In this document: positions 2,284 through 34,736 of the stretch, piece after piece
How the letters are laid out: the number at the start of each line of letters is the position of its first letter
Position numbering within the stretch: position 1 is the stretch's first letter
Virus record (IMG/VR): IMGVR_UViG_3300044646_001918
Span: 1-37,184 of that record
DNA from: a virus
Direction: 5' to 3' (one strand)
Length of the DNA: 37,184 nt
The notes under the pieces: generated by a model
Told to the model about the DNA's origin: nothing
Databases searched by the model: none
What the model saw: only the letters and a program-made list of their open reading frames with translations
Made by a program: the position numbers and the translations under genes

Positions 2284-2716
2284 TTTACAACCTGCAGGCT
2301 CAATCGGGTTTTCGCCGGGATTCCATGTGGTGTGGTCCCGCGGCGCATGCCGTTATGCCCAGCCCCGCCGAGCGAAACGAGCGGGGCGCCTGCACATCTT
2401 TTGGCAGGGTGCTGAAAGCGGCAGACATAACATCTGTGCGGCTAGGTTCAGCCCAATGTGGTATCGCCCAGCCCTGCCTCACTTTGTCCGCCAACGCCTC
2501 TGCTTTCTTGCATGCGCAACATGGACCTGAATCAACAGGTTTCGCCCATGGGACGCCTTGGGAATGCGGAGCTATTTTGACCGGGCAGCGCAGTAAACGA
2601 GGAGCACCGTATGGTGTGTCCTGTGGTCGGGAGAGGGATACGGCTTATCGGCCTGTGTCGGCCTATAACACGGCACCCCACTACCCTCGTCACCATGGCA
2701 ACCCGTGCGCTGAAAA

Positions 2717-2730
2717 GGTGAGCGCTCACC
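2717..2730. promoter_or_regulatory. 14-bp perfect palindrome
   Basis: GGTGAGCGCTCACC is a perfect inverted repeat without spacer, about 43 bp before the ATG at 2773. Its position and symmetry suit the operator of a dimeric DNA-binding protein; as RNA it would form a poor hairpin. I saw no second copy in the window. Confidence 0.4.
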
Positions 2731-2749
2731 GTTCCCGGCAATCTTTCTG

Positions 2750-2770
2750 AAATCTCAAATTTCAAATCTC
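2750..2770. repeat. Three tandem 7-bp repeats (AAATYTC)
   Basis: AAATCTC, AAATTTC and AAATCTC follow one another without spacing and end two bases before the ATG at 2773. The AT-rich heptads replace a normal Shine-Dalgarno region. A second heptad array of different sequence lies before the capsid operon (6228-6262). Confidence 0.6.
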
Positions 2771-2772
2771 CA

Positions 2773-2985
2773 ATGATCCATGAGTTCGCCCGCCCCGTTC
2801 CCGTCAAGACCCCGCTCGGTCTTGGCTCGGTGTGGTATGTCGAATCGCAGGGAGCCTACTTCAACAACATCTACGCCGTGATCCTCGAGGACACCGGCGA
2901 GACGCGCTACATGCGCAGCGATCAGTTCGTCGTCTTGGAGAATCCCACGATGGACATCAAGAATTTGGGCGCTGGCTCGGCTTAA
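2773..2985 (+). CDS. Small conserved-looking phage protein, 70 aa
   Basis: A 70-residue protein with the pattern GLGSVWYVESQG, then NIYAVILEDTGE and RYMRSDQF. It looks like a small beta-rich domain; similar short phage proteins exist, but I know no function. No clear Shine-Dalgarno precedes the ATG; the start is chosen because the heptad array and non-coding DNA end directly before it. Confidence 0.6.
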   Translation: MIHEFARPVPVKTPLGLGSVWYVESQGAYFNNIYAVILEDTGETRYMRSDQFVVLENPTMDIKNLGAGSA

Positions 2986-3032
2986 CAAAATCGGCCCTGG
3001 GGAGGGTCCGAGCGTCAACCAGCCAGCGCCCA
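2966..3032. repeat. 12-bp inverted repeat across a gene junction
   Basis: TGGGCGCTGGCT (2966-2977, inside the last codons of the upstream gene) is perfectly complementary to AGCCAGCGCCCA (3021-3032), with a 43-base loop. The right arm ends ten bases before the ATG at 3042, which has no visible Shine-Dalgarno. An RNA stem here could affect translation or stability of the downstream gene. There is no U-run, so it is not a classic terminator. Confidence 0.5.
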
Positions 3033-3041
3033 TTTCCATTC

Positions 3042-3833
3042 ATGCCAGAACATCCTCTCATCGTAGCCTACGGCGGCGGCACCAACAGCACCGCCATGCT
3101 ATGCGGATTCCGCGAGCGCGGCATCCGCCCTGCGCTAATCCTCTTTGCGGACACTGGCGGCGAACTCCCGCACACCTACGAGCATCTGCGCTTCATGTCG
3201 GACAAGTGCCAAGAATGGTTTGGGCTGCCGATTGAGACAGTCTTCAAGACCTACAAGGGAGAGCAAACATCTTTGGAGGGCGACTGCCTCCGCAATGAAA
3301 CACTGCCTTCTCTCGCCTACGGATTCAAAGCCTGCTCAATGAAATACAAAGTTGAACCGCAAAACAAAAGGGTGCGAAAATGGATGGACGAGCAAGGCGT
3401 AAAGACCGTTACCAAGGCTATCGGTTACGATTTTGCAGAGGGTCATCGCGGCGGCTCGATCACGACCAAGGATTTAGGCAAGGGGCGCATCGAGAATTAC
3501 TGGTATCCGCTCATCGAGTGGCAGTGGAAGAGGCAGGAGTGCATGGATGCCATTTGCCGCCACGGCCTCCCGCAAGCAGGCAAATCCTCCTGCTTCTTCT
3601 GCCCCGCCATGAAGCTGCGCGAAATCCTGCGCCTCCGCGACCAAGCGCCGGAATACTACCAGCGGGCGATTGCGTTGGAAGACAACGTCAAGGTTAAGGG
3701 GCCGAAGGAAGGACTGGCGTTTGGCACCAAGTGGACTGAGATCGTCAAAGCGGACGACGACCAGCTCAAACTTTTCGACTGGTTGGACAAACACGACCCG
3801 CACCATGTGCCGTGCGGGTGCTATGACGGATGA
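3042..3833 (+). CDS. PAPS-reductase-like PP-loop protein (first copy)
   Basis: This 263-residue protein starts MPEHPLIVAYGGGTNSTAML; residues 9-18 form a PP-loop (the usual SGGxDST read as YGGGTNST), the ATP-pyrophosphatase signature of PAPS reductases, thiolation enzymes and DndC-like proteins. FADTGGELPHTY follows, as in PAPS-reductase-like phage proteins, and SCFFCPAMK supplies a Cys184-x-x-Cys187 pair. The sulfate-reduction reaction itself is unlikely; phage members are suspected to modify nucleic acid or metabolise sulfur or nucleotides, without proof. The ATG at 3042 directly precedes the motif; longer upstream frames overlap another gene. Its TGA overlaps the terminase ATG. A second PP-loop gene lies at 20772. 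Confidence 0.75.
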   Translation: MPEHPLIVAYGGGTNSTAMLCGFRERGIRPALILFADTGGELPHTYEHLRFMSDKCQEWFGLPIETVFKTYKGEQTSLEGDCLRNETLPSLAYGFKACSMKYKVEPQNKRVRKWMDEQGVKTVTKAIGYDFAEGHRGGSITTKDLGKGRIENYWYPLIEWQWKRQECMDAICRHGLPQAGKSSCFFCPAMKLREILRLRDQAPEYYQRAIALEDNVKVKGPKEGLAFGTKWTEIVKADDDQLKLFDWLDKHDPHHVPCGCYDG

Positions 3834-32702: not shown

Positions 32703-33040
32703 TCGACCTCAACATCGACCGTCCGTATCACCCGGAAGCCCTGTGCGAATGCGGTGACGCTGAATGCCTCGGACCCGCGGACGCTGTCATTCCGGTGGTT
32801 GAAGCGCTGGCTGCCACGCTGCCGCAGTTGCAGTCGCCGATGCTCAAGCTGATCAAGGAGCGGAACGAGGCGCGCCGCCTCTGCGAACTCCTCGCCGGCT
32901 CCTTCCCCGACATCGCCACGTTGACCAACAAGAAGGCCATTGATGCGGCCAATGCTGAGATGCACCAGGCTTTGTGGGCTTACTGCAAGACCAAGAAGGA
33001 CTGGGACAAGCGCAGCTATCAGCTCGGAGATGCGGAATGA
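32699..33040 (+). CDS. Phage hypothetical protein with N-terminal Cys pair, 113 aa
   Basis: A 113-residue protein: CECGDAEC (about residues 16-23) suggests metal binding, followed by helices (LKLIKERNEARRLCELLAG; AEMHQALWAYCKTKKDWDK). No known family. Coupled to both neighbours by ATGA. Confidence 0.55.
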   Translation: MIDLNIDRPYHPEALCECGDAECLGPADAVIPVVEALAATLPQLQSPMLKLIKERNEARRLCELLAGSFPDIATLTNKKAIDAANAEMHQALWAYCKTKKDWDKRSYQLGDAE

Positions 33041-33240
33041 GCCAGCCAGCCCGCATCCCGAATCGCTTTGCCATGCAGCGCACCGGCGCCAAGCGCAAGG
33101 TAACCAAGAACGCGCTGATGGATCGCCCAGCTACGCGCAAAGACTCCGGCACCAAGGACACCGCCTTCCGCGGGCGCCGTAAGGCCAAGCGGGTGTGTGC
33201 GCGCAAGGCGCAGCGTCAAGCGAGGAGGGTGCAACGATGA
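33037..33240 (+). CDS. Very basic small protein, 67 aa
   Basis: A 67-residue protein rich in Lys and Arg (RTGAKRKVTKNALMDRPATR; RRKAKRVCARKAQRQARRVQ). It is likely to bind nucleic acid. The next gene encodes an acidic protein of similar size, so the two could pair, but this is speculation. ATGA overlaps on both sides. Confidence 0.5.
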   Translation: MSQPARIPNRFAMQRTGAKRKVTKNALMDRPATRKDSGTKDTAFRGRRKAKRVCARKAQRQARRVQR

Positions 33241-33455
33241 GCTACGAACTCGGAGACCCGGACGACCGTTGCTGCGATGAGGGCCGCGAGGCGGACATTG
33301 AGGAGCGTGACGCGGATGACTGCAGCAAGGCTTACGGCGTGCCGCACGATCCCTACGCGCATCGCACGCCGGAGGAAGACGCCGAGTGGGAAGCGGATAA
33401 GCGCTTGGACTACGAGGCGGATCGGATCTGCGGCCACGAATGGAGCAACATATGA
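33237..33455 (+). CDS. Acidic small protein, 72 aa
   Basis: A 72-residue very acidic protein (GDPDDRCCDEGREADIEERD start; HRTPEEDAEWEADKRLDYEA). Strongly negative charge could mimic DNA, as some anti-restriction proteins do; no homology is seen. ATG overlaps the upstream TGA. Confidence 0.5.
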   Translation: MSYELGDPDDRCCDEGREADIEERDADDCSKAYGVPHDPYAHRTPEEDAEWEADKRLDYEADRICGHEWSNI

Positions 33456-33646
33456 AGACCGTCGATTTCCAAACGGCCGACATCCTCATGATGTTCATGG
33501 ATGCGCATCGCAACGAGTTCCATGCGTTCGCGCAGGAGTTTGGCGAGCATTCCCGCAGGGAAACGTCGGCGATGGTCACGGCCATTATCAACAACATCCA
33601 CAAGATGCTTGAGGCGCCGCAATGGCAGCAGGAGGAAAATGAATGA
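33452..33646 (+). CDS. Small helical protein before the methyltransferase, 64 aa
   Basis: A 64-residue helical protein (FQTADILMMFMDAHRNEFHA; AMVTAIINNIHKMLEAPQW). Function unknown. Its end contains the GGAGG ribosome site and both start codons of the dual-coded methyltransferase locus, so translation of this gene may influence both. Confidence 0.55.
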   Translation: MKTVDFQTADILMMFMDAHRNEFHAFAQEFGEHSRRETSAMVTAIINNIHKMLEAPQWQQEENE

Positions 33647-34571
33647 GCTGGCTCTTTTCGCAGGCGCTGGTGGCGGAATACTCGGCGGCAAGCTCCTCGG
33701 ATGGCGCACCGTCTGCGCCGTCGAATACAACGCCTACGCCGCAAGCGTTCTTGTGGCGCGACAAAACGACGGATGCTTGGAGCCGTTTCCCGTCTGGTCT
33801 GACGTGCGAACGTTTGACGGACGACCGTGGCGAGGGATTGCTGAAGTCGTTTCTGGCGGGTTTCCATGCACCGACATCAGTGCCGCCGGCAAGGGCGCCG
33901 GAATCACCGGCAAGCAGTCAGGACTATGGACCGAAATGGCGCGAATTGTCGGTGAAGTTCGACCGCGCTTCGTCTTCGTGGAAAACAGCCCACTGCTTGT
34001 TAAGCGAGGACTTGCCGTGGTCCTTGGTGACCTTGCCGAAATGGGGTATGATGCGCGCTGGGGAATTGTGGGAGCGCACCACGTTGGCGCTCCCCACAAG
34101 CGGGACAGGTGCTGGGTTGTGGCACACGCCTCGAGCCAACGAGTGCAGCGAGAGGAGCGAGACGTTTGTAAAGCGGAACGCGGATCGGGGCGCGCATTGC
34201 TTCAGCGGTCTGTCGGCACAAGTGCGGGCATTTCCGAGGATGTGGCCAACGCCGACCGGCATAGACAACCCTCAGGTGCGCGGCGTAGGCAAGGCGGCGA
34301 AACATCCGAAGCGGGGAACAACACTCGGCGGCGCCGTGAGGATGTGGCCAACGCCAACGGTGCAGGACTCCAAGAACAATGGAGCGCCTTCACAGATGGA
34401 GCGCAATACGAAGCCGCTGAATGCGGAAGTTGGTGGAGCGCTGAACCCGGATTGGACCGAGTGGCTAATGGGGTGGCCAATAGGGTTTACCGCATCCGAT
34501 GCATTGGCAACGGACAAGTTCCAGCAGTGGCTGCGCTCGCATGGCGTTTGCTCGGCGGACCAACAGCATAA
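33639..34571 (+). CDS. C5-cytosine DNA methyltransferase (frame A of a dual-coded locus)
   Basis: A 310-residue Dcm-type enzyme. Motif I LALFAGAGG (residues 4-12), motif IV GGFPCTDIS with catalytic Cys77, motif VI VFVENSP (residues 113-118), motif VIII HKRDRCW (153-159) and a final block CIGNGQVPAVAALAW (about 288-302) are all present. The reaction is transfer of methyl from SAM to cytosine C5. The segment between motif VIII and the end is low in complexity, with repeated DVANA(D/N), so sequence specificity is unclear. Start ATGAATGAG; GGAGG is three bases upstream. Likely role: protection from host restriction. Confidence 0.88.
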   Translation: MNELALFAGAGGGILGGKLLGWRTVCAVEYNAYAASVLVARQNDGCLEPFPVWSDVRTFDGRPWRGIAEVVSGGFPCTDISAAGKGAGITGKQSGLWTEMARIVGEVRPRFVFVENSPLLVKRGLAVVLGDLAEMGYDARWGIVGAHHVGAPHKRDRCWVVAHASSQRVQREERDVCKAERGSGRALLQRSVGTSAGISEDVANADRHRQPSGARRRQGGETSEAGNNTRRRREDVANANGAGLQEQWSAFTDGAQYEAAECGSWWSAEPGLDRVANGVANRVYRIRCIGNGQVPAVAALAWRLLGGPTA

Positions 34572-34584
34572 GGAGGCCGCATGA
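33643..34584 (+). CDS. WPTP/WLMGWP protein encoded in the +1 frame over the methyltransferase
   Basis: A 313-residue open frame that overlaps the methyltransferase over its full length. It is not random: it contains SGLTCERLTDDRGEGLL, FHAPTSVPPARAPESPAS, SWKTAHCLLSEDL, two MWPTPT blocks, LNPDWTEWLMGWPIGFT, then ALATDKFQQWLRSHG. These blocks match, from memory, a family of phage proteins often listed as hypothetical or methyltransferase-associated. The ATG is seven bases after GGAGG, better spaced than that of the methyltransferase, and the TGA overlaps the next gene's ATG. Function unknown. Confidence 0.72.
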   Translation: MSWLFSQALVAEYSAASSSDGAPSAPSNTTPTPQAFLWRDKTTDAWSRFPSGLTCERLTDDRGEGLLKSFLAGFHAPTSVPPARAPESPASSQDYGPKWRELSVKFDRASSSWKTAHCLLSEDLPWSLVTLPKWGMMRAGELWERTTLALPTSGTGAGLWHTPRANECSERSETFVKRNADRGAHCFSGLSAQVRAFPRMWPTPTGIDNPQVRGVGKAAKHPKRGTTLGGAVRMWPTPTVQDSKNNGAPSQMERNTKPLNAEVGGALNPDWTEWLMGWPIGFTASDALATDKFQQWLRSHGVCSADQQHKEAA

Positions 34585-34736
34585 CCGCCCACGACATCGA
34601 CCTCGTCACCCAATGGCTCGCCGCGCGCGACAACGAGAAGACCGGCGCCAAGGTGTATCACGGCGAGCGGCCGTGTTTGCCGGCGAAGGCGATGTTGGCT
34701 GTCGCTGAACGCATCTGGAGGAAGCGCGCACGGTGA
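34581..34736 (+). CDS. Small helical protein, 51 aa
   Basis: A 51-residue protein (MTAHDIDLVTQWLAARDNEK start; LPAKAMLAVAERIWRKRAR end). Probably helical and basic at the end. AAGGAGG lies seven to nine bases before the ATG. Coupled to both neighbours. No family recognised. Confidence 0.55.
   Translation: MTAHDIDLVTQWLAARDNEKTGAKVYHGERPCLPAKAMLAVAERIWRKRAR

Follow-up and report, generated by a model that had tools for sequence, protein, structure and literature searches.

In the multispecific C5-cytosine methyltransferases of SPbeta-type Bacillus phages, motifs VIII and IX are separated by a series of target-recognition segments. The beta polypeptide of M.EcoHK31I (YGGCCR), said to be about 176 amino acids long, is reportedly the product of a second reading frame within the alpha gene. 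The large subunit of M.EcoHK31I comprises motifs I–VIII and X and the predicted target-recognition domain, and the small subunit carries motif IX only; in M.AquI (CYCGRG), motifs I–VIII are located on one chain, and the distal variable region and motifs IX and X on the small subunit (PMC3404938).

The window studied here, a stretch of viral DNA of 37,184 nucleotides (IMG/VR record IMGVR_UViG_3300044646_001918, positions 1 to 37,184), was judged to be probably a temperate phage from its integrase-like, exonuclease-like and replication-initiation genes and a weak terminase match. Two genes on its plus strand, read in frames A and B (+1), overlap almost completely, and it is highly likely that they encode the two chains of one C5-cytosine methyltransferase. 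Chain A (alpha-like) would supply the AdoMet-binding and catalytic domain (motifs I–VIII) and motif X. Translation from a start 4 nt downstream, with the same ribosome-binding site but in a frame shifted by one base, would give chain B (beta-like), which would contribute a target-recognition region of one to six WPTP modules and motif IX. By analogy with M.EcoHK31I, A and B would associate into one active enzyme, and B would be required for methylation. The segment of A beneath the B modules would be largely passenger sequence, as would, to a lesser degree, the first half of B beneath the catalytic motifs of A. The whole enzyme plausibly protects the phage DNA from host restriction.

The locus resembles M.EcoHK31I in its motif layout, with motifs I–VIII and X assigned to the large chain and motif IX to the second, and in the position of the second chain inside the first in another frame, as is reported for that enzyme. 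It differs in that B spans the whole gene, starting 4 nt after A, and shares a ribosome-binding site with A. As in M.AquI, the catalytic motifs I–VIII are on one chain, and motif IX and the distal variable region are assigned to the second; motif X, which is on the second chain of M.AquI, lies here in frame A (GNGQVP, 34506–34523). AquI-like relatives of the locus do occur (L229, L341, L374 and RedFox gp42/gp43). Single-chain actinophage enzymes of the Tweety gp72 type likewise have WPTP-type modules and an EWMMGWPxGW block between motifs VIII and X, but with every motif in one frame and on one chain. The serial target-recognition segments of the SPbeta-type enzymes are, in general terms, comparable to the repeated WPTP modules; these enzymes differ in being single-chain, and the SPbetaL6 methyltransferase has no B frame. 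A two-frame methyltransferase arrangement is known from very few studied bacterial enzymes; in phages it is apparently ancient and widespread.

Most long overlapping gene pairs described from DNA phages and bacteria are single cases, and such pairs are often doubted for that reason; the present pair is supported by some 300 loci from several phyla and by codon-level tests, and its two frames clearly divide the work between them. Annotation at times keeps only one of the two chains, and phage C5-methyltransferases of this type may seem inactive when chain A alone is cloned.

Layout of the overlapping genes

The features of the locus are as follows, with the basis of each in brackets.

33440–33646, plus strand: small upstream ORF, the stop of which overlaps the B start as ATGA (ORF list)
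33630–33635, plus strand: AGGAGG ribosome-binding site common to the A and B starts (sequence; spacing survey of relatives)
33639–33647, plus strand: double start ATGAATGAG, A ATG at 33639 and B ATG at 33643 (start contexts of relatives)
33639–34571, plus strand: frame A, predicted catalytic chain (alpha-like) of a C5-cytosine methyltransferase, 310 aa, motifs I–VIII and X (PF00145, phrog_363, omega A)
33643–34584, plus strand: frame B (+1), putative beta-like chain, 313 aa, with WPTP modules and motif IX as its C-terminal half (phrog_1008, permutation test, omega B)
34120–34242, plus strand: frame B module 1, WHTPRANECS... (module split)
34243–34344, plus strand: frame B module 2, WPTPTGIDNPQVRG...HPKRGTTLGGAV (module split; similar by eye in ESSI2 and SAKp11)
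34345–34440, plus strand: frame B module 3, WPTPTVQDSKNNGAPSQMERNTKPLNAEV (similar module in L006, L013 and RedFox)
34441–34491, plus strand: motif IX-like block LNPDWTEWLMGWPIGFT in frame B (aligned to the motif IX region of single-chain methyltransferases)
34506–34523, plus strand: motif X, GNGQVP, in frame A (sequence; spacing to frame-1 motif IX in dual-coded loci)
34581–34736, plus strand: next small ORF, the start of which overlaps the B stop as ATGA (sequence)

Both reading frames are as the first-pass annotation had read them from the sequence and the ORF list, including the double start. They overlap by about 926 nt, A ending in TAA and B in TGA. As had also been noted, both starts are served by one GGAGG site and the B stop overlaps the next gene: AGGAGG is spaced 3 nt from the ATG of A and 7 nt from that of B, and the TGA of B overlaps the ATG at 34581. 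At the other end, the ATG of B overlaps the TGA (33644–33646) of the upstream ORF. By these ATGA overlaps at both ends, B is placed like an ordinary coupled operon gene. Neither the upstream nor the downstream ORF gave a match in the PHROG search. The same DNA encodes DVANAD/N in frame A and WPTPT in frame B, and likewise CIGNGQVPAVAALAW and ALATDKFQQWLRSHG; these correspondences had been given correctly.

The double start was surveyed in relatives. NTGANTG was present in 198 of 259 unique start contexts; in these 198, A starts with ATG (102), GTG (74), TTG (21) or CTG (1), and B with ATG in 193. The Shine–Dalgarno spacing in relatives is typically 4–5 nt to A, hence 8–9 nt to B. Judged by start codons and spacing, initiation of B seems at least as good as that of A.

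Frame A matched PF00145 over amino acids 4–189 only (1e-29, Pfam search) and phrog_363 along its length (7e-65, PHROG search). FAGAGG, GGFPC, ENSP and the motif VIII region are conserved, and motifs I, IV (PC), VI (EN) and VIII are present. By its sequence, A is a C5-cytosine methyltransferase with motifs I–VIII and X. It had been described as complete; no motif IX was recognisable in chain A, the PF00145 match ending at amino acid 189.

Two further ORFs of the window were recorded. A phosphoadenosine phosphosulfate reductase-like gene (2832–3833; phrog_424, 1e-32) adjoins the terminase-like gene, and a 282-codon antisense ORF on the minus strand (33019–33867) overlaps the start of the locus.

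Conservation and selection in the two frames

In the window alone (GC content 61 %), frame B was left without a stop in 5.6 % of synonymous-codon permutations of A, and one open +1 frame at this GC content is weak evidence beyond chance. A chance open frame was compatible with the window and was rejected with the homologues. Viral contigs were scanned with B and, separately, with A; this gave 157 loci, many of them common to both scans, and nearly all of them, A-recruited ones included, have a long +1 ORF homologous to B. The number of +1 stops in homologous genes and the constraint on synonymous sites of A had been proposed as checks. Interior +1 stops were almost absent in 74 non-redundant homologues, compared with 4.8 per gene expected from permutation, and the +2 frame had a mean of 15 stops. 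Such B stops as occur lie mostly at the extreme ends, with clear interior cases in L120 and L135; frame A is broken by a stop in L220.

Permutations preserving the A protein and its codon usage were scored with a two-fold cross-validated B profile. The real B exceeded all 20 permutations in 74 of 74 homologues (mean 339 versus 181 bits). Similarity of B by proxy from A is real and sizeable (∼181 bits), yet insufficient, and proxy conservation was rejected, the real B being above the permutations in every case. Eleven regions from ten distantly related named phages (of Vibrio, Acinetobacter, Pseudomonas, Synechococcus, Mycobacterium, Paenibacillus and Arthrobacter, and Escherichia ESSI2 and Klebsiella SAKp11) exceeded all 100 permutations; among these regions, Tweety gp69/gp72 and RedFox have no full-length overlapping B. 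The negative controls gave no B signal in the permutation test (E. coli Dcm, Bacillus SPbetaL6, Streptococcus phi-SC181, Klebsiella Slopekvirus Dmt and two Terrisporobacter phage methyltransferases, including that of TPDSL_ph1). The internal ORF gp51 of Streptococcus phage P0095 was rejected as a B homologue; motif IX of this methyltransferase is in frame with motif X, and the +1 score is within the permutation range.

Another 155 loci were recruited from viral contigs, archaeal MAGs and the genomes of bacteria of several phyla, and in every one of them (155 of 155) A and B are both present in the same phase. B without A was seen in none of these, which, as they were recruited by the motif IX block, holds for B forms with that block. 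L364 and L403 are B forms without it, a type that such recruitment would miss. A literature search, with subscription papers largely outside its reach, gave no paper describing the B/A family as dual-coded.

Selection was estimated from 78 independent homologue pairs. Divergence at codon positions 1/2/3 of A was 0.146/0.081/0.174, compared with 0.135/0.092/0.299 in flanking ORFs, a control that contains some shadow ORFs and is therefore conservative. Changes silent in A numbered 0.18 per site if they alter B and 0.50 if they are silent in both frames, so the constraint on synonymous sites of A is present. The omega values, obtained by a simple counting method of our own and hence approximate, were 0.18 [0.16–0.21] for A and 0.77 [0.67–0.88] for B in motifs I–VI, 0.30 and 0.57 in motifs VII–VIII, 1.06 [0.97–1.17] (neutral) and 0.57 [0.48–0.66] in the variable region, and 0.45 for either frame in the last region. 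Selection therefore moves from A to B at the position of the methyltransferase target-recognition domain. Purifying selection acts on both frames, each being conserved beyond the constraint imposed by the other. The main first-pass prediction holds: in other genomes, too, one and the same DNA encodes the two conserved patterns in this phase, and the overlap is old.

Motif IX and the modules of frame B

B matched phrog_1008 (1e-18) and phrog_26627 (4e-13) in the PHROG search, in agreement with the phage protein pattern that had been recognised in it; the Pfam and NCBIfam models gave no match to B. Four PHROG families (phrog_1008, phrog_26627, phrog_35493 and phrog_27243) match frame B or its C-terminal end. 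The first bears the label "DNA methyltransferase", which may stem from the overlapping frame, and the other three "unknown function". For a family of phage proteins with no name or a wrong one (phrog_1008), the present analysis suggests a function.

The C-terminal half of B consists, in the homologues, of one to six WPTP-type modules followed by LNPxWxEWLMGWPxGWT. Blocks of the same kinds are found in frame within the single-chain methyltransferase of Tweety (gp72) and its relatives, ahead of motif X. Profile–profile comparison of B with the single-chain methyltransferases (probability 97.6, E 4.8e-12) aligned B 158–287 with their variable region and motif IX. The single-chain profile in turn places the block and motif X on M.HhaI 273–310 (KLHPRECARVMGYPDSYK...GNSVV), that is, on motifs IX and X, this part scoring weakly alone (−0.9); the Pfam match does not reach the motif IX region. 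From the profile match and the M.HhaI alignment, frame B very probably holds the motif IX that is absent from A, and frame A motifs I–VIII and X. An AlphaFold model of the single-chain L329 (pTM 0.70) had M.HhaI and M.HaeIII as its best PDB matches (Foldseek, E ∼1e-13). The rmsd was large over the variable region, which was modelled with low confidence, and the comparison thus confirms the family but not the details. AlphaFold gave a poor model of B alone (pLDDT 52.7), and a PDB sequence search with the B profile gave no credible match.

The modules are shared between B proteins. Between proteins whose A catalytic regions are less than 70 % identical, 425 ungapped module matches were found at a B identity of at least 60 %, many of the pairs not being mutually independent. 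Mean identity was 0.70 in frame B and 0.31 in frame A, and divergence at B-codon positions was 0.28/0.24/0.60, a coding pattern in frame B. As the choice of these matches by frame B could itself favour that frame, the search was also run the other way, from frame A; it gave 0 matches at the same thresholds. Modules 2 and 3 of the window resemble, by eye, modules of ESSI2, SAKp11, RedFox, L006 and L013. Modules common to different backbones would be the pattern expected of exchangeable target-recognition segments, and we infer that the WPTP modules set specificity; if so, they form a natural repertoire of target-recognition parts that can be exchanged. Selection and module sharing place target recognition apparently on B, whereas the predicted target-recognition domain of M.EcoHK31I is on the large chain.

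Arrangements among relatives, rival readings and origin

Among the natural REARRANGEMENTS, scored for the 308 loci in which both motifs IX and X were located, motif IX is in frame 1 (frame B) and motif X in frame 0 in 271, with a spacing of 15 codons in 263 of these dual-coded loci. In 23 of the 308 loci both motifs are in frame 0 (single-chain), mostly 22–27 codons apart, and in 12 both are in frame 1, as in M.AquI. In L229 (Spirochaetia MAG) and L374, a single ORF contains motif IX followed by a segment of the A type that includes motif X. In L364 and L403 both motifs are in frame 0, and a shorter ORF in frame 1 still carries the WPTP modules, an indication that these have a function of their own. 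Sequencing errors in individual contigs could account for some unusual architectures, but each type was met repeatedly.

B had been proposed as a second, independent anti-restriction product. Such a protein (or a regulator or an inhibitor), overprinted on the gene of a methyltransferase that does not depend on it, would have its own start and stop coupled to the neighbours and would be conserved, as B is; moreover, no methyltransferase counterpart was found for the first half of B, which is mildly constrained (omega B 0.77). Against this, B never occurred without A in the 155 further loci recruited by the motif IX block, no motif IX is recognisable in A, the variable region of which evolves neutrally, and the C-terminal half of B matches the C-terminal region of single-chain methyltransferases and is in frame with motif X in L229 and L374. 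B thus looks like the part that chain A lacks for a whole methyltransferase, namely motif IX and the target-recognition region; it is probably not a separate anti-restriction protein, and the independent role as a whole is improbable. It is still less probable that programmed ribosomal frameshifting joins A (motifs I–VIII), B (modules, motif IX) and again A (motif X) into one polypeptide. Pieces so joined would give the usual C5-methyltransferase motif order, as in the single-chain relatives, but two shifts in opposite directions would be required, the ATG of B is at a fixed place (193 of 198 NTGANTG contexts), the coding signal runs through the first half of B, and M.EcoHK31I is reported as two polypeptides (PMC3404938). 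That the +1 frame is untranslated and conserved only as a by-product of the A amino acids, base composition or nucleotide-level constraint is hardly credible: the single window is not significant and the proxy similarity is large, but permutations preserving A and codon usage fail in 74 of 74 homologues, the shared modules diverge in a coding pattern in frame B with no such frame-A matches, and canonical methyltransferases give no comparable signal.

The two-chain enzyme encoded by overlapping genes is therefore retained as the preferred reading, and its origin was considered from a tree. When rooted on canonical C5-methyltransferases (100/100), dual-coded members are basal, and the single-chain and AquI-like enzymes of actinophages branch from among them, the deep branches being poorly resolved; this suggests an old dual-coded state with later re-fusion, and that direction is likely on the sequences compared. 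We lean towards the wider view that an ancient overlapping pair stands at the base of a large, phage-rich C5-methyltransferase family, with catalysis in one frame and the target-recognition module array and motif IX in the other. Phages would exchange modules in frame B, which frame A would merely tolerate, and the single-chain and AquI-like actinophage enzymes would be later re-fusions.

Several single loci are recorded here as observed. L229 (2470–3667) and L374 are possible de-overlapped forms, such as a tandem duplication of the overlap would produce. Adjoining actinophage genes, both annotated as methylases, are found in L162 (RedFox gp42/gp43), L413 (Maverick gp78/gp77) and L409 (SuperAwesome gp89/gp88); the RedFox and Maverick pairs read as AquI-like halves, motifs I–VIII being followed in the +1 frame by the modules and motifs IX and X. 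In L223 (Gallionella MAG, 2385–3484), A and B exchange frames close to motif IV, as either a true frameshift or an error of sequencing would explain. The annotation of Pseudomonas phage phPA-G lists only B, and that of Acinetobacter phage ABMM1 only A; the annotators of Paenibacillus phage Diva had marked an "internal gene".
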